Of a stretch of DNA of 64,000 nucleotides, positions 17,422 through 27,162 are shown piece by piece (position 1 is the first letter of the stretch; every line of letters begins with the position of its first letter). The position numbers were made by a program, and so were the translations under genes. The DNA comes from Buttiauxella selenatireducens (GTDB taxonomy: Bacteria > Pseudomonadota > Gammaproteobacteria > Enterobacterales > Enterobacteriaceae), in contig NZ_CP133838.1 in the NCBI RefSeq assembly GCF_031432975.1, positions 3,658,001 to 3,722,000 of the forward strand, given 5' to 3'. The notes below the pieces were generated by a model, which saw nothing but the letters and a program-made list of their open reading frames with translations, searched no databases and was not told the origin of the DNA.

Positions 17422-18081
17422 ATGGAGTTTGACTGGAGTGCCATTTGGCCTGCAATCCCGCTTTTGATTGAAGGCGCCAAAATGACTTTGCTGATTTCGG
17501 TCATCGGGTTATTTGGTGGTCTGATCATTGGCCTGGTGGCCGGTTTCGCCCGTACCTACGGCGGCTGGATTGCCAACCACATCGCATTAGTTTTCATTGA
17601 AGTCATCCGCGGTACGCCAATCGTCGTACAGGTGATGTTCATCTACTTCGCGCTGCCTATGGCAGTCCCTGACTTGCGCATCGACCCGTTCACAGCGGCT
17701 GTCGTGACCATTATGATCAACTCCGGTGCTTATATTGCGGAAATTACCCGTGGTGCGGTGCTGTCGATTCATAAAGGCTTCCAGGAAGCCGGGCTTGCAC
17801 TCGGTCTGTCCAAGCGCGAAACCATTCGCCACGTCATTATGCCGCTGGCTCTGCGCCGTATGCTGCCGCCGCTGGGCAACCAGTGGATTATCAGCATCAA
17901 AGATACGTCGCTGTTTATCGTTATCGGTGTGGCTGAGCTGACCCGTCAGGGGCAAGAAATTATTGCAGGAAACTTCCGTGCGCTAGAGATTTGGAGCGCC
18001 GTTGCAGTCTTCTATCTGATTATTACTTTGGTGCTGAGCTTCGTGCTGCGTCGCCTTGAAAGAAGGATGAAAATCCTGTGA
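17422..18081 (+). CDS. glnP: Glutamine ABC transporter permease GlnP
   Basis: 219 residues, the E. coli length. A five-helix permease of the polar-amino-acid (HisMQ) family. The cytoplasmic EAA loop, where the ATPase docks, reads [29 protein letters not shown] (residues ~116-145). The last codons overlap the glnQ start, and AGGAACACATC precedes the ATG. Works as a homodimer with GlnQ and GlnH. Confidence 0.97.
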
Positions 18082-18800
18082 TTGAATTTAAAAACGTCTC
18101 TAAGCACTTTGGCAAAACCCAGGTGCTGCATAACATCGACCTCAACATTAAACAGGGCGAGGTGGTGGTGATTATCGGGCCGTCAGGCTCCGGCAAATCC
18201 ACATTGCTGCGTTGCATTAACAAACTGGAAGACATCACCAGTGGTGACCTGTTTGTTGACGGTCTGAAAGTGAATGATCCGAAAGTAGATGAGCGCCTGA
18301 TTCGTCAGGAAGCTGGGATGGTGTTCCAACAGTTCTATCTGTTCCCACATCTGACTGCGCTGGAAAACGTCGCCTTTGGTCCGATTCGTGTGCGTGGTCT
18401 GAAAAAAGACGCGGCCGATAAACTGGCTAAAGAACTATTGGCAAAAGTGGGCCTTGCTGAACGCGCACATCACTATCCGTCAGAGCTTTCCGGTGGCCAA
18501 CAACAGCGTGTGGCGATTGCCCGTGCGTTGGCTGTGAAGCCGAAAATGATGCTGTTTGATGAGCCTACCTCAGCCCTTGACCCGGAACTGCGCCACGAAG
18601 TGTTGAAGGTTATGCAGGATCTGGCAGAAGAAGGCATGACGATGGTTATCGTCACTCACGAAGTGGGATTTGCCGCCAAAGTCGCTTCGCGCCTGATCTT
18701 CATTGATAAAGGGCGCATTGCTGAAGATGGTAATCCGCAAGAGTTGATTGATAACCCACCAAGCCAGCGTTTGCAGGAATTCTTGCAGCACGTGTCTTGA
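18078..18800 (+). CDS. glnQ: Glutamine ABC transporter ATPase GlnQ
   Basis: 240 residues beginning with GTG at 18078, overlapping glnP by four bases (GTGA); E. coli glnQ has the same arrangement. Walker [10 protein letters not shown] at residues 34-42, Q-loop near FQQFYLFPH, signature LSGGQQQR at ~137, Walker [16 protein letters not shown], switch His in VTHEVGF. Energises glutamine import. Immediately behind the stop starts the 54-bp tandem array. Confidence 0.97.
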
Positions 18801-18805
18801 TTTCC

Positions 18806-19232
18806 CCCCTCACCCTAGCCCTCTCCCTCAAGGGAGAGGGGATAATCCGAAATTATCCCCCAAGACCGTCTTCTACCTCTCCTGGGGGAGATAGGATAAT
18901 CCGGAATTCTCCCTCAAGACCGTCTTCTCCCTCTCCTGGGGGAGAGAGGATAATCCGGAATTCTCCCCCAAGACCGTCTTCTCCCTTTCCTGGGGGAGAG
19001 GGGATAATCCGAAATTCTCCCCCAAGACCGTCTTCTCCCTTTCCTGGGGGAGAGGGGATAATCCGGAATTCTCCCTCAAGACCGTCTTCTCCCTCTCCTG
19101 GGGGAGAGGGGGATAATCCGAAATTATCCCTCAAGACCGTCTTCTACCTCTCCTGGGGGAGAGGGGGATAATCCGGAATTCTCCCTCAAGACCGTTTTCT
19201 CCCTCTCCTGGGGGAGAGGGCCGGGGTGAGGG
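18806..19232. repeat. Tandem array of seven ~54-bp units inside a CCCTCACCC...GGGTGAGGG element
   Basis: After glnQ comes CCCTCACCCTAGCCCTCTCC, then units beginning GGATAATCCG at 18840, 18894, 18948, 19002, 19056, 19111 and 19166 (54, 54, 54, 54, 55, 55 bp and a last partial unit), and the closing GGGAGAGGGCCGGGGTGAGGG. Each unit holds CAAGACCGT and an inverted pair CTCTCCTGGGGGAGAG that can fold as a hairpin. The outer ends are complementary, so the whole element can fold as one large structure. Because 54 is a multiple of three, long frames appear on both strands, but they are low-complexity artefacts. The same outer ends bracket two other arrays, at 52.6 and 60.8 kb. Confidence 0.9.
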
Positions 19233-20282: not shown

Positions 20283-20909
20283 ATGTCCGCGAAACGCTAT
20301 TACTACGAACCTGCCGACGGCCACGGTTTGCCCCACGACCCATTGAACGCCATTATCGGTCCCCGCCCTATTGGCTGGATTGCCTCCTACAATCAGCAAG
20401 GCCAACGAAATCTGGCACCGTACAGTTTCTTTAACTGCTTTAATTATCGACCACCGATTATTGGGTTCGCCAGCAGCGGTTGGAAAGACAGCGTACAAAA
20501 TATTCTTGAGACCAAAGAGTTTGTCTGGAACCTGACCACGCGTGAACTGGCCGAACAGATGAATGAAACCTCCGCCTCCATCCCGCACGGTGAAGATGAG
20601 TTTACTCGCGCCGGATTGACCGCTGTTGCAGGACGAAAAGTCAAAGCCAGTCTGGTGGCAGAAAGTCCTGTCAATTTCGAGTGCCGCTTGTCTCAGTGCA
20701 TTCAGCTAACGGGTGCTGACGGGGCGGCTATCAATACCTGGCTTGTCCTGGGTGAAGTCGTCGCGGTACATATCGATGAATCCCTGCTGATCGAGGGCAT
20801 TTACCAAACTGCATTGGCAAAACCGGTGCTGCGCGCGGGCGGTCCATCAGCTTATTACACCATTGATGAAGCCCATCGCTTTGACTTAATTCGCCCTGAC
20901 GCGCGATAA
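20283..20909 (+). CDS. Flavin reductase-like FMN-binding split-barrel protein
   Basis: 208 residues of the flavin-reductase/FMN-binding split-barrel family, which bind FMN as dimers and reduce flavin or act in small-molecule metabolism. The family signature is near the N-terminus: [35 protein letters not shown] (phosphate- and isoalloxazine-binding segment), followed by [10 protein letters not shown] and [16 protein letters not shown]. No signal peptide, so cytoplasmic. It is divergent from rlmF with a 90-base gap. No partner oxygenase is adjacent; the electron acceptor is unknown. Confidence 0.8.
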
Positions 20910-21087
20910 AACCAACGAAATCATGATCCTGTATCTGCATGATTTGTAAGTATTCCGTCAAGTTGTGTTGTTCAAAAAATGAGCATAAGTTAATCAATTT
21001 TTTGCGTCTTTTATTTACCGCATTGCACCTACACTTCAAGTGCTGATTGTTTTTTTATCAGCCCCCCTAAAGCGAGAGGATGTGATT

Positions 21088-21348
21088 ATGAAAAAATTGC
21101 TGTATTTTTCTGCGGTTGTCACCCTTGCGACATTACCGTTTGCTACCATGGCCGCCGATCAACTTTCTAAAGACAACCTAGGTCAACTGCGTCCGGCAGG
21201 GACCGTCTCTGTCTCTGGCGCCGCTAATCTTGACGATCTACAAGCCAAACTTGGTGAGAAAGCGAAAGAAGAAGGTGCAAAAGGTTTTATTGTTAACTCT
21301 GCCAGTGGTGACGAACGTATGTTTGGCACCGCGACTATTTATAAATAG
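21088..21348 (+). CDS. mcbA: DUF1471/BhsA-McbA family periplasmic protein McbA (YbiM)
   Basis: 86 residues from ATG 21088, the length of E. coli McbA. Signal peptide of about 22 residues (KKLLYFSAVVTLATLPFATMA|AD), then the short mature DUF1471 domain with GQLRPAGTVSVSGAANLDDLQAKL and the family's end GTATIYK. In E. coli it affects colanic acid and biofilm formation. It is one of two paralogues here (the other is ybiJ at 26902); together they bracket the PTS/aminopeptidase operon. GAGAGGATGTG precedes the start. Confidence 0.9.
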   Translation: MKKLLYFSAVVTLATLPFATMAADQLSKDNLGQLRPAGTVSVSGAANLDDLQAKLGEKAKEEGAKGFIVNSASGDERMFGTATIYK

Positions 21349-21380
21349 TCTGAATAGTTTGTCCCCGGGGTATGTGTAAT

Positions 21381-21411
21381 AACGGCTTCTCTATCAGGGG
21401 GCCGTTTTTTA
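21381..21411 (+). terminator. mcbA terminator
   Basis: AACGGC pairs with GCCGTT across a 14-base loop, followed by TTTTTTATTT. Confidence 0.65.
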
Positions 21412-21567
21412 TTTACGCCCCCCCTCTTTTTCTTCACGGAAAAAATAAGTAATCACATGATACTTTTATTGACCATCTGTGAATGACCTCACTTTATTTG
21501 CTCCTGACAACGTCTACTGTAAGCAGCGCAAGAATTGTCTCTTGTGATGACTTACGGAGCGGTAATA

Positions 21568-22875
21568 ATGAAAAACCTGATGGCCGCAATAGAAGCAAAG
21601 CTGATGCCGCTTGCGGGAAGAATGGCACAACAACGCCATCTCGGAGCGATTCGCGATGCGTATATCTCGTTTATGCCGTTTATTATTGTGGGTTCTATTC
21701 TGCTGGTTATTTCCTCTTTCCCAAGCACTGCTTATCAACAGTTTATGGCATCAATTTTTGGTGAAGGTTGGTCTGCCACTATAGAAATCCCGTTTAATGC
21801 CATTTTCTCTACCATGGCGGTGTTTATTAGCTTTTTGGTCGCTTACCGTCTGGCCGAGCGTTATGACATTGACAAAATGTCAGCCGGTATTTTGTCGCTC
21901 TCCTGCTTTTTGATCCTCACACCTTTCGCTAAAACTCCAGAGATTGGCAACTTAATCCCGATGGAATGGCTGGGATCAAAAGGGTTATTTGTGGCGATGC
22001 TGGGTGCACTTGCCAGCACGGAATTATTTGCCTGGATGCTACGTCAAAACTGGGTGATACGTATGCCAGACGGCGTGCCACCAGCGGTACAGAAATCATT
22101 TGCCGCACTGATCCCATCACTGCTGATATTGGTCATTGCACTCGCAATTCGCGTGCTGTTCGCCAAAACGGATTACCACACCATTCACCAGTTTGTTTAT
22201 GAAGTCCTCGCAACGCCAATTCGTCACTTTGGTACCTCCTATATCGGGGCGCTGTTTACCTGCTTTAGCATTACCAGTTTGTGGTCGGTCGGTATTAACT
22301 CCGGTTCGATGGTCAATGGCATCCTGCGGCCTTTCTGGATGGAAAACCAGATGGAAAATCTGGCGGCAACTCAAGCCGGTTTGCTGCCACCGCATGTGGT
22401 GACCGAACAGTTCTACGATATGATTTGGATGGGGGGTGCCGGTGCAACTTTGTCTCTGGTGATTGCTATGCTGCTCTTTGCCCGCAGCCAGCACATTAAA
22501 AACGTTTCACGCCTTGCCGCAGGCTCTTCCATCTTCAACATTAACGAACCGGTGCTCTTTGGCCTGCCGGTTATCATGAACCCCATCATGCTCATCCCAT
22601 TCAACCTGGTTCCGCTGGTGCTGGTTACCGTGCAGTACATCGCCATGTCGATAGGTTGGGTTGCCACCACTACTGGAGTGTATATCCCATGGACACTGCC
22701 TCCGGTGCTAAGCGGTTTTATCGTTACCGGACATCTCAGCGGTGCCATCATTCAGCTTATTAACCTGCTGATCGGCGCCATCATCTATCTACCATTCCTT
22801 AAAGTGGTGGATAAGCAATATCGGGCCAATGAAACCCCGGCGCTTGTCCCATCAACCAAACCCGCCACGGAGTAA
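21568..22875 (+). CDS. PTS EIIC component, lactose/cellobiose family
   Basis: 435 residues from ATG 21568 (GGAGCGG upstream). A PTS membrane permease of the lactose/N,N'-diacetylchitobiose/cellobiose type: N-terminal MKNLMAAIEAKLMPLAGRMAQQRHLGAIRDAYISFMPFIIVGSI, a long hydrophobic body, and the substrate-loop block AAGSSIFNINEPVLFGLPVIMNPIMLIPF with the conserved Asn-Glu-Pro that contacts sugar. It transports and, with EIIB, phosphorylates a beta-linked glycoside. First gene of a four-gene operon (EIIC, aspartylglucosaminidase, aminopeptidase, EIIB), which points to a glycosylated amino acid or peptide as substrate. No EIIA gene is in the operon, so a EIIA encoded elsewhere must serve it. Confidence 0.88.
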   Translation: MKNLMAAIEAKLMPLAGRMAQQRHLGAIRDAYISFMPFIIVGSILLVISSFPSTAYQQFMASIFGEGWSATIEIPFNAIFSTMAVFISFLVAYRLAERYDIDKMSAGILSLSCFLILTPFAKTPEIGNLIPMEWLGSKGLFVAMLGALASTELFAWMLRQNWVIRMPDGVPPAVQKSFAALIPSLLILVIALAIRVLFAKTDYHTIHQFVYEVLATPIRHFGTSYIGALFTCFSITSLWSVGINSGSMVNGILRPFWMENQMENLAATQAGLLPPHVVTEQFYDMIWMGGAGATLSLVIAMLLFARSQHIKNVSRLAAGSSIFNINEPVLFGLPVIMNPIMLIPFNLVPLVLVTVQYIAMSIGWVATTTGVYIPWTLPPVLSGFIVTGHLSGAIIQLINLLIGAIIYLPFLKVVDKQYRANETPALVPSTKPATE

Positions 22876-22882
22876 GTAAAAC

Positions 22883-23851
22883 ATGACGTTATCGACAAAC
22901 TGGGGCGTGATAGCGACCTGGCGCATGGCCTGGGAAGGTGTCGCTGAAGCTGCAAATATGCTGCAAGAAAGCGGCGATGCCAGCAGCGCTGCTGTGCTGG
23001 CCGTGACCTGCGTGGAAGATTATCCCTACTATAAATCAGTCGGTTACGGCGGTTTGCCAAACGAGCAAGGCGTTGTCGAACTCGACGCTGCGTTTATGGA
23101 CGGCTCAACGCTTGCCATCGGCGCAGTCGCCAGTATCCGCGACATCGCTAACCCCATTCTGGTGGCCCAGGCATTAAGCCGCGAACGCTTTAATAGTTTT
23201 ATGGTGGGTGAAGGTGCCCAAACCTGGGCTTTTGCCCACGGCTTTGAACACAAAAACATGCTGACGGACCGCGCCCATCAGCATTACCTGAAACGCAAAC
23301 GTGAAACACTGGATCGTGGTTTAAGCCCGTACACCGGGCACGACACCGTCGGCGTTATCACGCTCGACCAAAATCAGCAAATGTGTGTCGCCACCTCAAC
23401 CAGCGGGTTGTTTATGAAACGCCCCGGCCGCGTCGGTGACTCCCCCGTCTCTGGTTCAGGATTTTATGCCGATAGCCAGATTGGTGCCGCAACAGCCACC
23501 GGCCTTGGCGAAGATCTAATGAAAGGCTGCATCAGCTACGAAATTGTCAGCCGCATGGGGCGCGGCATGTCACCGCAACAGGCGGCAGAATCCGCAGTTT
23601 ACGATTTGGAAAGCCAGCTCATTGCCCGCTTTGGTCGCGCCGGAGATTTGTCTGTCGTTTGCATGAATAATCACGGTGAATACGGTGCCGCAACCACTAT
23701 TGATAACTTCTCGTTTTCGGTCGCCACACCCGCACAAGCGCCAGCCGTGTTTTTGACCACTCGCGAAGGCAAGCACACGCTTATTCGCCCCGCAGATCAG
23801 GCCTGGCTTGATGCCTACCTGGAGCGCATAACTGCGGAGGTGATTGTATGA
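22883..23851 (+). CDS. N4-(beta-N-acetylglucosaminyl)-L-asparaginase (aspartylglucosaminidase family, Ntn hydrolase)
   Basis: 322 residues. The precursor should cleave itself before Thr155 in GHDTVGVI, creating the N-terminal nucleophile. The beta-subunit start TVGVITLD..VATSTSG, then GRVGDSPVSGSGFYAD and GAATATGLGEDLMKG, follow glycosylasparaginase rather than the plant-type isoaspartyl peptidase pattern. The family cuts the GlcNAc-Asn bond, giving aspartate and the amino-sugar. There is no signal peptide, so it acts in the cytoplasm on what the PTS imports, probably a phosphorylated GlcNAc-Asn or similar. It overlaps the aminopeptidase gene by four bases (ATGA). Substrate specificity is inferred, not proven. 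Confidence 0.85.
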   Translation: MTLSTNWGVIATWRMAWEGVAEAANMLQESGDASSAAVLAVTCVEDYPYYKSVGYGGLPNEQGVVELDAAFMDGSTLAIGAVASIRDIANPILVAQALSRERFNSFMVGEGAQTWAFAHGFEHKNMLTDRAHQHYLKRKRETLDRGLSPYTGHDTVGVITLDQNQQMCVATSTSGLFMKRPGRVGDSPVSGSGFYADSQIGAATATGLGEDLMKGCISYEIVSRMGRGMSPQQAAESAVYDLESQLIARFGRAGDLSVVCMNNHGEYGAATTIDNFSFSVATPAQAPAVFLTTREGKHTLIRPADQAWLDAYLERITAEVIV

Positions 23852-25317
23852 AATGCCAGATAACTACCCTTGCACAATGCCGGACAGACGCCCATTTAAT
23901 GTTGTGGAAAGCGCATACGGATGCGTGGCCAGAAGCATTGCGCCCGCTGCTTGCTGAAATGGCACACGGTGACGAGCCACAATCCACCCGCTTTGGTTTA
24001 AACGGCCTCTGCCAACAGCTCACTCTTTTGCCTTCGAGCCAGATTGAACGCCCCGAAATCCTGCGCCAGTTAACCGAAAGCCTGAATACTCTTTTGCCCA
24101 GCCCAGTTTTGCATCCCGTCGCGCTGGATATTTCCGCTTTCAATCTGGCAGACTGCACCGTATTTACTCGCCTGCGCACTCTGTTGGTTGCGTTGATGAA
24201 CCGCTTTTATCAGCTCCCACAATTGGGTTTTCGACAAGGCCAGCAAGAAAGCAACGGGCAGCTTTGGCTTTTGAGCACAGAGCACAACACGCTTGCCGAT
24301 GAGTTGGCCGCGCAAACTCAGGCTATTGCTCAAGGCATGTTTCTATCGCGCAAACTTTCCGACACACCTGCAAATGGCTGCCGTCCGCAAGATGTTGCGC
24401 AGCAGGCGCAAGCTTGGGCGAGCGCCCATCCGAAAACTCACTGCGATATTCTGGACGAAAACACCCTGCGCGAGCTGGGTTTAGGCTGTCTTGATGCCAC
24501 AGGGAAAGGCAGCAAGAATCCTCCACGCCTTGTGACACTTCGCTGGCAAGGCGCGGCAGAAAACGCGCCATATTACGCCTTCGTTGGCAAAGGCATCACC
24601 TTCGACACGGGTGGTATGTGGCTTAAAGAAGGCGAAGGGATGCGCACCATGAAATACGACATGTGTGGTGCTGCTGTGGTCTTCGGGCTAATGGAGATTG
24701 TTAAAACGCTACAACTTCCGCTGAACGTGGTCGCCGTGATGGCGCTGGCAGAAAACATGCCGGGTGAAAATGCCATGCTGCCGGGTGATGTGGTGAAATC
24801 TCATGCCGGTCTGAACGTCGAAATTATTAACACCGATGCAGAAGGTCGCCTGGTACTGGCTGATGCGCTCAGCTACACCGCAACACGCTTTAAACCGGCG
24901 GCATTAATCGACGTCGCCACGCTGACAGGCGCAGTAGTCAAAGCATTGGGTTACGACATTTCGGGTCTGATGAGTAATAACCCGCAATTGAGCCAACAAC
25001 TACAGCAGGCGGCCGACTTAACCCAGGACCGGATCTGGCCGCTACCGCTGGACGAAAGTTTTGATCCGCAGGTCAAAAGTCATATTGCCGATCTGACCAA
25101 TACACCTCCCAACAACGCGGCGATTGCCGTCTCAGCCGCTCATTTTTTAAGTAAGTTCTGCCATCAGTTGCCATGGGCGCACTTAGATGTCAGCGGAACC
25201 GCACTCTGTCGCGGTAAATTCACGCAGGCCAGCGGCCGTCCAGCTCTGCTATTGACGCAATACTTACTCGATCTGTGCAAAGGAAACTCCAATGAAAAAG
25301 ATTCTACTGGTATGTGA
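23848..25317 (+). CDS. M17 leucyl aminopeptidase family protein
   Basis: 489 residues. The C-terminal two-thirds is an M17 (PepA/PepB) metallopeptidase domain: GKGITFDTGGMWLK (first metal-binding Lys/Asp, residues ~247-260), MKYDMCGAA, AENMPGENAMLPGDVV and the signature NTDAEGRL (~327-334). The N-terminal part is divergent. A cytoplasmic two-metal aminopeptidase. It is translationally coupled to the asparaginase upstream and overlaps EIIB downstream by 26 bases, so its job is surely linked to that import system: either trimming peptides from imported glycopeptides or from the Asn/Asp product. It is additional to the housekeeping PepA and PepB expected elsewhere. Confidence 0.88.
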   Translation: MKCQITTLAQCRTDAHLMLWKAHTDAWPEALRPLLAEMAHGDEPQSTRFGLNGLCQQLTLLPSSQIERPEILRQLTESLNTLLPSPVLHPVALDISAFNLADCTVFTRLRTLLVALMNRFYQLPQLGFRQGQQESNGQLWLLSTEHNTLADELAAQTQAIAQGMFLSRKLSDTPANGCRPQDVAQQAQAWASAHPKTHCDILDENTLRELGLGCLDATGKGSKNPPRLVTLRWQGAAENAPYYAFVGKGITFDTGGMWLKEGEGMRTMKYDMCGAAVVFGLMEIVKTLQLPLNVVAVMALAENMPGENAMLPGDVVKSHAGLNVEIINTDAEGRLVLADALSYTATRFKPAALIDVATLTGAVVKALGYDISGLMSNNPQLSQQLQQAADLTQDRIWPLPLDESFDPQVKSHIADLTNTPPNNAAIAVSAAHFLSKFCHQLPWAHLDVSGTALCRGKFTQASGRPALLLTQYLLDLCKGNSNEKDSTGM

Positions 25318-25597
25318 TTTAGGGATGTCGACCAGTCTGGTCGTCAAACGGATGCAAGAAGCTGCCGCAAAACGTGAGCTGGAAGTTGAGATCCAGGCAA
25401 AAGGAATGAGTGATTTTAAAAACGCGATTACGGCTTTTGACTGCGCGCTGCTCGGCCCGCAGATTGCTTATAAGCTCGCTGATTACAAGCAAATCGCCGC
25501 CGCGCTCAACAAGCGCGTTGAAACCATTAACATGATGGATTACGGAATGGTCAATGGAGAGAAGATCCTCGATCACGCTCTATCTCTCTGTAATTAA
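25292..25597 (+). CDS. PTS EIIB component, lactose/cellobiose family
   Basis: 101 residues. A soluble phosphocarrier of the lactose/cellobiose type: KKILLVCDLGMSTSLVVKRM has the active Cys8 in the phosphate-binding loop, and the C-terminal MMDYGMVNGEKILDHAL is the usual end. Passes phosphate from an EIIA to the sugar bound in EIIC (gene at 21568). It starts inside the aminopeptidase gene, after AAAGGAAACTCC. Last gene of the operon; an ERIC element follows directly. Confidence 0.9.
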   Translation: MKKILLVCDLGMSTSLVVKRMQEAAAKRELEVEIQAKGMSDFKNAITAFDCALLGPQIAYKLADYKQIAAALNKRVETINMMDYGMVNGEKILDHALSLCN

Positions 25598-25603
25598 ACT
25601 CTA

Positions 25604-25716
25604 AATAATTCGAGTTGTAGGAAGGCGGCAAGGGAGTGAGTCCTCAGGAGCTTACTTAGGTAAGTGACTGAGGCGAGGGAGTGCAGCCAACGCACCTACA
25701 GCTTGAAGTATGACGA
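25604..25716. repeat. ERIC element (enterobacterial repetitive intergenic consensus)
   Basis: A ~113-bp imperfect palindrome with the ERIC core: GTGAGTCCTCAGGAGCTTAC, then AAGTGACTGAGGCGAGGGAG, ending in CTACAGCTTGAAGTATGACG. It lies between the convergent EIIB and regulator genes, 7 bases after EIIB and 3 before the regulator's stop codon, where it can act as a shared structured 3' end. Confidence 0.9.
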
Positions 25717-25718
25717 GT

Positions 25719-26540
25719 TTAGCGAGATTTTAGCCATGCAGCCGGTGTGAGATTCTTCAACCGGCTGCGGATAATTCGATGATTCAGCAAATCCTCAAAT
25801 TCCAGCAACACGGCTCCAAACCCTAACCGTTTATCGAACCGTTCACCATTGAGTAACTGCTCCAGAGGCTGCGCCCATTCACCACCAGCTGCCCTTTCCT
25901 GCCACGCTTCAGGTTGTGCTTCATGCAGGGGAACCTGGAGTTTTTGCGCCAGTTGCCGGGCAAGTTCGCCAGTATTCGCCGTCAATGACAGCACCTGCAA
26001 CAGCAAGCCCTGTTGCAAAAAGCCCACCAACGCATCAAGTGATTGCTCATCATTACGCTCCCGCAGCGCCACGGCAAGAAAACCTGAAACCGGGCAGCTA
26101 AACGCCAGCAACATGCCGTGCTTGTGGCTAATGCTTTCCGGCAGCGGGAAAACATCAAGACGAAGATGACCGGTAGGCTGTTTTAAATCGGGTTTAGTCA
26201 GGCGTGATTGTTGCCAGTTTTGCAGTGTTCTGCTGACACTCGCACGGGAAATCCCCTGCTGTACCAGCAATTGCGCCGCTTCCAGAAGCTCATCAAGCGA
26301 AAGTGCCAAACGCACACGCAAAAAGACCAGCATGGACTCTTGTTCATGGCTCAATGCGCGATGAATAGTATTAGGTCGATGAGATTTGTCATAACAGTCA
26401 TCCCGTTTGCGCCAGCGCCTTACGGTATCCACTGAAATATTCAGCTCTTCCGCCAGCTCGCTGTCGCTCTTGTCAGAGCTTTGAATATATTTACGGGTAC
26501 GCGGCGTCGTGGTGGCGTTGGAGTGCAGCTTAATCTCCAT
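25719..26540 (-). CDS. IS481-transposase-derived regulator-like protein
   Basis: 273 residues from ATG 26540 (AAGAGG upstream). The N-terminal ~110 residues match the DNA-binding part of IS481-type transposases: MEIKLHSNATTTPRTRKYIQ, a helix-turn-helix KSDSELAEELNISVDTVRRWRKRDD, SHRPNTIHRALSHEQE, then a second HTH-like segment ISRASVSRTLQNW. The rest aligns by pattern with the rve/DDE core (HLRLDVFPLPESISHKHGMLLAFSCPVSGFLAVAL, then LSLTANTGELARQLAQ). The first Asp is kept (LDV), but the usual TDNG is TANTG, and no DDE Glu is apparent. No inverted repeats of an insertion sequence flank it. It converges on the PTS/glycosylasparaginase operon. The likely role is a transcriptional regulator of that operon built from a tamed transposase; this is inference. 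Confidence 0.75.
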   Translation of the reverse strand: MEIKLHSNATTTPRTRKYIQSSDKSDSELAEELNISVDTVRRWRKRDDCYDKSHRPNTIHRALSHEQESMLVFLRVRLALSLDELLEAAQLLVQQGISRASVSRTLQNWQQSRLTKPDLKQPTGHLRLDVFPLPESISHKHGMLLAFSCPVSGFLAVALRERNDEQSLDALVGFLQQGLLLQVLSLTANTGELARQLAQKLQVPLHEAQPEAWQERAAGGEWAQPLEQLLNGERFDKRLGFGAVLLEFEDLLNHRIIRSRLKNLTPAAWLKSR

Positions 26541-26901
26541 CAAACCTCTTGTGGCAAACTGTTAATTAAGATCTTCATTATAAAAGTAAGTTAGCTCACG
26601 CAAAGAGCTAATAGCCACATTATCGTAAAAAGAGCGCGCAAGCGATTGCAGACCAGAGCGGGGCAGCGCTGACAAAAAAAGTAGCAAAAGGTGCGGTAAA
26701 CGAAGCGGATGCAAAGATATATAAAGTGAAATGATAATTCGCACGCTAATCATTTTTTATATCAATGATTTAACATAAATTCAAATTATTTGAACAAGCC
26801 AGTCAATTCTATTCGATTTATTATTCTGCTTAAAAGTGTGACCATAATCACATCGACGGAACATCGTCACCCTAAACAGAATAACCTGCGAGAAATTAAC
26901 T
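26541..26901. other. Gap upstream of ybiJ with a start-less coding-like stretch
   Basis: 361 bases holding the regulator's promoter (minus) and the ybiJ promoter (plus). From 26615 to 26734 a plus-strand frame of 39 codons reads like a charged helix (KKSAQAIADQSGAALTKK, ending AKIYKVK and stop) but has no start codon; it may be debris of a lost gene. No ERIC, hairpin or IS end was found. Confidence 0.4.
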
Positions 26902-27162
26902 ATGAAAACCATCAAATATGCTGTAGCCGCCATCGCCCTTTCAACTCTTTCTTTCGGCGCGTTCGCTGCACAATCTATCAATCCTGCTGAAGCTCAGAAT
27001 TTAAACAAAGTAGGCGTGGTATCTGCAGACGGCGCATCAACTCTGGATGGACTGGAAGCAAAACTGGCAGATAAAGCAGAAGCAGCAGGCGCAAAAGCGT
27101 ACTCCATCACTTCTGCTAATACTAACGGCAAGATGAGCGGCACCGCGGTTATTTATAAATAA
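26902..27162 (+). CDS. ybiJ: DUF1471 family periplasmic protein YbiJ
   Basis: 86 residues, the length of E. coli YbiJ. Signal peptide of 22 residues (KTIKYAVAAIALSTLSFGAFA|AQ), then a short DUF1471 domain with QNLNKVGVVSADGASTLDGLEAKLADKA and the end GTAVIYK. These small periplasmic proteins respond to stress and influence biofilm or envelope properties; the exact role of YbiJ is unknown. It has GCGAGAAATTAACT before the start and a strong terminator behind. Paralogue of mcbA at 21088, in the same orientation. Confidence 0.92.
   Translation: MKTIKYAVAAIALSTLSFGAFAAQSINPAEAQNLNKVGVVSADGASTLDGLEAKLADKAEAAGAKAYSITSANTNGKMSGTAVIYK

Follow-up and report, generated by a model that had tools for sequence, protein, structure and literature searches.

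A four-gene operon of Buttiauxella selenatireducens probably serves as a catabolic route for N-acetylglucosaminyl-asparagine (GlcNAc-Asn), or a very close N4-glycosyl-asparagine, that enters the cell through a phosphotransferase system (PTS). The operon spans 21568-25597 by open reading frame (ORF) reading of a 64,000-nucleotide stretch, called the window here, from the one-contig 5.2 Mb chromosome of this bacterium (G000). Its genes, all on the plus strand, encode in order the PTS membrane component EIIC, a glycosylasparaginase, an M17 aminopeptidase, and the PTS component EIIB. The substrate would be GlcNAc-Asn, the stub that remains after digestion of N-glycoproteins. If this proves true, many Enterobacteriaceae, Vibrionaceae, and clostridia would take up the N-glycan stub of glycoproteins through a PTS.

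An earlier note on this DNA, made from the letters alone, had named these four genes, and their identities were confirmed by Pfam matches far above chance in a scan that took in ten window genes (the four operon genes and six neighbors). The lactose/cellobiose type that it had given to the transporter also stands, since EIIC scores 445.4 bits with TIGR00410 (cut-off 236) and EIIB matches PF02302 and has a candidate phospho-cysteine. Its description of the genes as tightly packed was accurate for the ATGA overlap that joins the second and third genes and for the 26-nt overlap of the third and fourth, but EIIC and the glycosylasparaginase gene are separated by a gap of 7 nt. The start of EIIC was placed at the ATG at 21568, which is preceded by GGAG, whereas the mechanical ORF opens at 21535.

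PTS import followed by cytoplasmic cleavage of an N4-glycosyl-asparagine, also proposed in the earlier note, is supported by comparative genomics because of the closest relatives of the enzyme, the linkage of the genes in two phyla, an asparagine at one EIIC site that is seen only in enzyme-linked EIICs, the presence of EIIA in some related clusters, and NagA/NagB- and ChbG-like neighbors of some relatives. When the PDB was searched by sequence, the best solved relatives of the enzyme were Flavobacterium glycosylasparaginases (4e-51), with isoaspartyl peptidases next (4e-33). An AlphaFold2 model (mean predicted local distance difference test score, pLDDT, of 83), matched to 9gac and 1p4k, again ranked glycosylasparaginase structures first, with a smaller gap than by sequence (5e-28 vs 6e-24 for isoaspartyl peptidases). 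The protein combines an N-terminal nucleophile hydrolase fold with the catalytic threonine of autoprocessing (HDT155, aligned with T152 in Flavobacterium numbering) and a conserved tryptophan (Trp13, aligned with W11), the features by which a glycosylasparaginase (EC 3.5.1.26) is recognized. No signal peptide is evident on reading the sequence.

It is very improbable that this hydrolase is instead an isoaspartyl peptidase or L-asparaginase and that the operon acts on peptides that are damaged or modified by sugars. These enzymes share a common Pfam family, and the operon enzyme does match the PRK10226 beta-aspartyl-peptidase model, although below its cut-off (117.7 vs 567 bits). Yet glycosylasparaginases are the closest relatives, by a clear margin in sequence and a narrower one in fold, and the isoaspartyl peptidase identity was rejected as the weaker of the two on both measures. 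The source genome also carries a separate paralog (C1:1627448) that is 37% identical to the operon enzyme. Across 149 Enterobacteriaceae genomes, a homolog at E<=0.001 occurs in 70 and the close enzyme in 14 (64-100% identity, next best 38%), and 56 of the 135 genomes that lack a close copy carry a more distant homolog.

The neighborhood search that the earlier note had put forward was run as a contig scan, and it recovered the same genes. The scan confirmed 527 relatives, and the best 80 loci were kept for gene-content counts, which were scored by similarity within the stretch around each locus; several stretches end at contig ends, and four of the 80 loci come from one Clostridium strain. 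Within these best 80 of 527, EIIC was found at 73 loci, the regulator discussed below at 62, M17 at 60, EIIB at 27, EIIA at 25, and an M20 peptidase at 13. The linkage of enzyme and PTS is thus kept in both Gammaproteobacteria and Bacillota, and both EIIB and EIIA are present in the clusters of Vibrionaceae, Hafnia, Serratia, and Histophilus and in most of those from Bacillota. Neither EIIC nor EIIB lies in the stretch examined at six of the 80 loci (L087, L106, L107, L108, L111, and L127), four of them from one strain.

An EIIC adjoins the enzyme in five of nine Buttiauxella genomes, and the enzyme of Buttiauxella sp. A111 is 96% identical to the window copy. No match was obtained by megablast of 5,426 E. 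coli genomes, a search that copies below about 85% identity could escape. In a FastTree phylogeny of 91 enzyme sequences, the Buttiauxella/Cedecea enzymes group with those of Vibrionaceae and Oceanospirillales and apart from the Enterobacter/Klebsiella/Kluyvera group, which suggests that the two sets of operons may have been acquired separately.

The EIIC protein aligns with 3qnq (5e-113), an entry named as a cellobiose-specific IIC that we take to be ChbC of Bacillus cereus. In ChbC, His250 and Glu334 contact the sugar. The window EIIC retains Glu334, and in place of the His250 expected of this PTS family it has Asn244. The motif GIN is found at this site in 89 of 91 aligned rows of enzyme-linked EIICs (window included, some genomes twice), and the remaining two rows are pieces of a split gene that do not cover the site. 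That gene, in one Enterobacteriaceae genome, is divided into two ORFs (L044 8602-9174 and 9199-9921, minus strand). The enzyme-linked EIICs of Bacillota (L189, L190, L191, L192, and L195) read GIN or GLN. At 30 lactose-family EIIC loci in nine Buttiauxella genomes, all five that are flanked by the enzyme have asparagine, and all 25 unlinked ones have histidine. The His250-to-Asn change in enzyme-linked EIICs offers a one-site handle on the specificity of the PTS.

These data bear on the idea of a chitobiose-type importer encoded alongside an enzyme and a peptidase that work on peptides independently of it, with only regulation in common. This arrangement seems improbable, given that the asparagine change is seen only in enzyme-linked EIICs, that the linkage of the genes holds across two phyla, and that the source genome already has a chb-like cluster (L217), even though EIIC belongs to the ChbC/CelB family and ChbG-like and GH4 genes also occur in some Clostridia clusters. 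These genes lie beside EIIA/EIIB in L078, L102, L105, and L119; GH4 is split into two pieces in L105, and both genes are confirmed by Pfam in L102.

Somewhat less remote, but still unlikely, is the use of the same machinery for a different N4-glycosyl-asparagine such as glucosyl-Asn or core-fucosylated GlcNAc-Asn. The departure of the window EIIC from ChbC at the His250 site would fit such a substrate, as would the acceptance of the fucosylated compound by AsnA2, the glycosylasparaginase of the Lactobacillus casei alf-2 cluster (PMC6960285). An N-acetylhexosamine is indicated instead by the NagA/NagB-like, ChbG-like, and GH4 genes that neighbor some relatives, and no fucosidase is present among the ten window genes to which the scan was limited. 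In L190, where the order is EIIA-enzyme-EIIC-EIIB, the opposite strand carries CutC, NagA-like (Amidohydro_1), and NagB-like (Glucosamine_iso) genes, starting 2.7 kb past EIIB.

In the pathway proposed for GlcNAc-Asn, EIIC and EIIB, along with an EIIA encoded at another place in the genome, would import the compound and phosphorylate its sugar at C6. Cytoplasmic glycosylasparaginase would then split the compound at its N-glycosidic amide into aspartate and 1-amino-GlcNAc-6-phosphate; the latter would shed ammonia, either spontaneously or with help, and leave GlcNAc-6-phosphate for NagA and NagB. The M17 enzyme would be an accessory that could strip an N-terminal residue whenever a small glycopeptide is taken up. 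Control of the operon would be exerted by a transposase-derived DNA-binding protein acting via candidate operators around a CRP-like site.

Several observations weigh against this pathway. A genome-wide search placed no EIIA in the window, and thus the operon has none of its own; also, EIIB was not found by similarity in the stretch examined at 47 of 64 gammaproteobacterial-type loci (17 have it). Phosphorylation would therefore need borrowed partners. From the polar residues conserved in 31 enzymes (L087, L106, and L127, which have no EIIC in the stretch examined, are included), no pocket for a 6-phosphate was found, and only W7, K137, T173, and D197 of these residues differ in the kinase-linked L194 copy. 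The asparagine change in EIIC may be a single inherited event, and therefore it points to a substrate class without proving a substrate. Neither M17 nor M20 was found in the stretch examined of four Vibrionaceae clusters (L060, L061, L063, and L065) or of Bacillota L190, L191, L192, L193, and L195. Furthermore, plain GlcNAc-Asn does not support growth of wild-type L. casei, a failure attributed by its authors to uptake (PMC6960285). In favor of the pathway, the same source lists AsnA2 activities of 20.91 umol/mg/min on GlcNAc-Asn and 0.26 umol/mg/min on its 6-fucosylated form; because the latter is cleaved, a substituent at O6 is tolerated.

Candidate partners for the PTS are available. The source genome has two lac-type EIIA genes, both outside the window. 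One belongs to the chb-like cluster L217, in which EIIB-EIIC-EIIA are followed by genes assigned by motif as AraC-, GH4-, and ChbG-like. The other adjoins an EIIB with 47% identity to the window EIIB (L218), and this EIIA is for that reason a candidate partner of the window PTS. A lac-type EIIA is likewise present in 13 of 13 other enzyme-positive genomes. In some Buttiauxella/Cedecea copies of the operon, EIIB is short or not found (L054 10468-10695, L051, and L055-L059). The pattern suggests that these lineages have lost EIIB and use partner EIIBs instead.

The part of the earlier note that gained no support concerns peptides, namely peptide import and a need for the peptidase. Beyond the clusters noted above in which M17 and M20 were not found, a pepV mutant of L. 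casei grows on 6'FN-Asn as the wild type does (PMC6960285). The peptidase is not a core part of the system. The usual peptidase neighbor is M17 in Gammaproteobacteria and M20 in Firmicutes, and because unrelated peptidases fill the same role, small glycopeptides are suggested as occasional substrates.

Gene order varies among the Bacillota clusters, which read EIIA-enzyme-EIIC-CutC-EIIB in L191, L192, and L195, EIIA-enzyme-CutC-EIIB in L193, and EIIA-EIIB-EIIC-GRDB-like-enzyme-M20-CutC in the L119 type. The GRDB-like short protein (about 174 aa, matching the first half of the PF07355 profile) recurs in clusters of Clostridia and L. curvatus (L102 5059-5583, L113 7403-7921, and L035 11695-12219). 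At L194, a ROK-family gene adjoins the enzyme and PTS genes were not found. Judging from this one locus and the published L. casei case, PTS and kinase look like alternatives.

A CutC-family gene scores over the Pfam cut-off in 27 of 299 Bacillota genomes. All eight with a close enzyme have it (57-100% identity to the Romboutsia query; seven genomes linked to PTS genes and one to a ROK gene), versus 19 of the 291 others (Fisher 1.5e-9, kinship not corrected for). The Romboutsia query genome, one of the eight, was chosen with the knowledge that it held enzyme and CutC, and the count without it is 7/7. Six of the eight (G160, G204, G316, G343, G368, and G417) have CutC inside the cluster or no more than about 5 kb away, G411 and G465 have it elsewhere, and the genome with a distant enzyme copy (39%, G448) is without CutC. 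Eight genomes reached via loci, which were chosen after CutC had been seen beside some, all carry the gene, six of them near the enzyme; it occurs in 3 of 14 well-known control genomes. CutC also follows the enzyme directly in Oceanospirillales L062 and lies divergently beside the Histophilus operon L066. For the Enterobacteriaceae, its presence in 14 of 14 enzyme-positive genomes is uninformative because most genomes there carry CutC (91 of 149 over the cut-off), and 17 of the 20 listed genomes without it are 1.4 Mb or smaller. The source genome has its CutC gene outside the operon, elsewhere.

CutC proteins form a TIM-barrel family, still labeled as copper homeostasis proteins, of which PDB 3iwp is named a homolog. 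A human member exists, and the copper role has been doubted because the small RNA MicL sits inside cutC. Based on linkage, CutC might conceivably hydrolyze the glycosylamine that glycosylasparaginase sets free (1-amino-GlcNAc or its 6-phosphate), a proposal that we offer only tentatively. In the alf-2 report, the breakdown of 1-amino-GlcNAc is described as non-enzymatic (Becerra et al., PMC6960285). No link between CutC and glycosylasparaginase is described in the searched literature, which consisted of open-licence PMC papers. The association makes the function of this unsettled family testable.

Three things were overlooked in the earlier note, namely the lack of EIIA in the window, the published alf-2 precedent, and the gene that follows EIIB on the opposite strand. 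This gene probably encodes a dedicated operon regulator derived from a DDE transposase. Its product has an HTH_23 domain and an IS481 family match below the cut-off (51.4 vs 224 bits), and an AlphaFold2 model (mean pLDDT 88) matches the IstA transposase and retroviral integrases at E 2e-7, as a partial match with a low overall TM score (0.37 by query length). The catalytic columns, which cover the first two residues of the DDE triad, were located by inspection and from the strand pattern in the model. Aspartate occupies the first column in 17 of 70 sequences and is absent from the residues listed for columns 188 and 189 at the second (68 and 69 of 70 sequences). Like the IS481/IS21 transposases, the protein has an N-terminal helix-turn-helix and an integrase-like fold; unlike them, it has not kept the catalytic positions and gives one match per genome, always beside the operon, in 14 of 14 genomes, and a mobile insertion sequence was rejected on these grounds. 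Of 149 Enterobacteriaceae genomes, the 14 that carry the close enzyme also carry this gene, each time within a few kb of the enzyme, and 0 of the 135 others have it (Fisher 6e-20, kinship not corrected for). The gene is divergent from EIIC in 46 loci (seven of these with EIIB and EIIA) and in 16, as in the window, it lies on the opposite strand at the operon's 3' end. If the assignment is true, a bacterial transposase has been turned into an operon-specific transcription factor.

A candidate site for this regulator is the palindrome upstream of the operon, AAGTAATCACATGATACTT, whose sole exact match in the 5.2 Mb genome is found here; one more place appears at 3 mismatches, and a backward-pattern control gave 1 place. 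A related 19-base consensus reaches at least 14/19 in 61 of 62 regulator-linked upstream regions versus 2 of 1160 random segments, numbers that are descriptive since the consensus was derived from the same loci it scores. At two loci that have such an EIIC but no regulator, the best upstream scores are 13 and 9 of 19. Between the operator arms lies a site called CRP-like from what we take to be the CRP consensus (Table 1). Such sites are visible in many orthologous upstream regions (e.g., L049, L055, and L070) and unclear in L061, L064, and L080. In Enterovibrio L061, a full palindrome can be read near the start codon.

Table 1. Coordinates of the operon, its candidate control sites, and CutC-family genes of Bacillota clusters (window positions unless a locus is named)
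Feature	Position	Strand	Basis or remark
Operator-like palindrome AAGTAATCACATGATACTT, candidate regulator site	21447-21465		upstream of operon
CRP-like site TGTGA-N6-TCACT	21478-21493	+	read from sequence, between operator arms
Second operator arm, imperfect	21529-21554		77% complementary to 21446-21471; just upstream of ribosome-binding site
EIIC, lactose/cellobiose/chitobiose PTS family	21568-22875	+	PF02378 (PTS_EIIC) 6e-56; TIGR00410; Asn244 (GIN) at ChbC His250 site
Glycosylasparaginase	22883-23851	+	PF01112 (Asparaginase_2) 1.3e-61; HDT155 motif
M17 aminopeptidase	23848-25317	+	PF00883 (Peptidase_M17) 2e-109; NTDAEGRL motif
EIIB, lactose/cellobiose family	25292-25597	+	PF02302 (PTS_IIB) 7.7e-19; candidate phospho-Cys is residue 8, read from sequence
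Probable dedicated regulator, derived from DDE transposase	25719-26543	-	HTH_23; IS481 match below threshold; AlphaFold2 model
CutC-family gene, in or beside cluster	L191 10907-11599
CutC-family gene, in or beside cluster	L192 6319-7011	-
CutC-family gene, in or beside cluster	L195 6217-6906	-
CutC-family gene, in or beside cluster	L193 9720-10424
CutC-family gene, in or beside cluster	L102 10039-10713

Other features of the locus were also recorded. Rfam gave no match over 20800-26700, and promoter and terminator scans yielded no more than chance. The gap between EIIB and the regulator gene (25605-25715) is rich in palindromes over about 110 nt, and one 23-base segment taken from it has a single occurrence in the window. 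This stretch may be a small inserted repeat, because L050 and L053 have no such gap and show a 4-nt overlap of the two genes. Small BhsA/YdgH-like genes flank the operon and regulator at 21094-21348 (PF07338 match) and 26902-27162 (judged by sequence only). Farther away, a 54-bp tandem repeat of about seven copies with 93% matches (18832-19220) follows the gene at 18078-18800.

Three known systems invite comparison with the operon. The Salmonella fra locus, as we understand it, resembles the proposed pathway in using a sugar-asparagine conjugate and phosphorylating the sugar. There, an Amadori compound is handled by a kinase and a deglycase, with FraD as kinase, FraB as deglycase, FraE as asparaginase, and FraA as transporter. 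To our knowledge, no gene is common to fra and the Buttiauxella operon. The chb PTS for N,N'-diacetylchitobiose (E. coli; L. paracasei, PMC12791066) shares the EIIC/EIIB family, C6 phosphorylation of GlcNAc, and NagA/NagB downstream. The Buttiauxella operon differs in having an amide hydrolase and no phospho-glycosidase, asparagine in place of His250, and no EIIA in the window.

The closest parallel is offered by L. casei alf-2 (AlfH, AlfC, AsnA2, PepV, SugK, and AlfR2), which has a cytoplasmic autoprocessed glycosylasparaginase, a linked peptidase, and GlcNAc-Asn as key intermediate (PMC6960285). Copies of the enzyme in L. curvatus (Latilactobacillus curvatus) and Enterococcus are 55-56% identical to that of the window, with 55% for the L. 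curvatus copy (L035). None of the alf-2 counterparts AlfH (major facilitator superfamily, MFS, permease), AlfC (fucosidase), SugK (kinase), AlfR2 (GntR), and PepV (M20) is among the ten window genes scanned. Where alf-2 relies on an MFS permease, a fucosidase, and a ROK kinase, the lactose-family PTS of Buttiauxella would both transport and phosphorylate; the peptidase is M20 in alf-2 and M17 in Buttiauxella, and the regulator is GntR in the former and transposase-like in the latter. No PTS-glycosylasparaginase operon of Enterobacteriaceae is described in the searched open-licence papers. A PTS beside glycosylasparaginase has probably already been drawn for lactobacilli, because the legend of Fig. 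7 in the alf-2 paper names clusters of L. curvatus (MRS6) and L. sakei and gives the full form of the abbreviation PTS (PMC6960285). The ROK-family gene beside the enzyme in L194 resembles SugK of alf-2. Overall, gene content suggests that the PTS operon may be a variant of an alf-2-like pathway in which a PTS takes the place of MFS permease and kinase.

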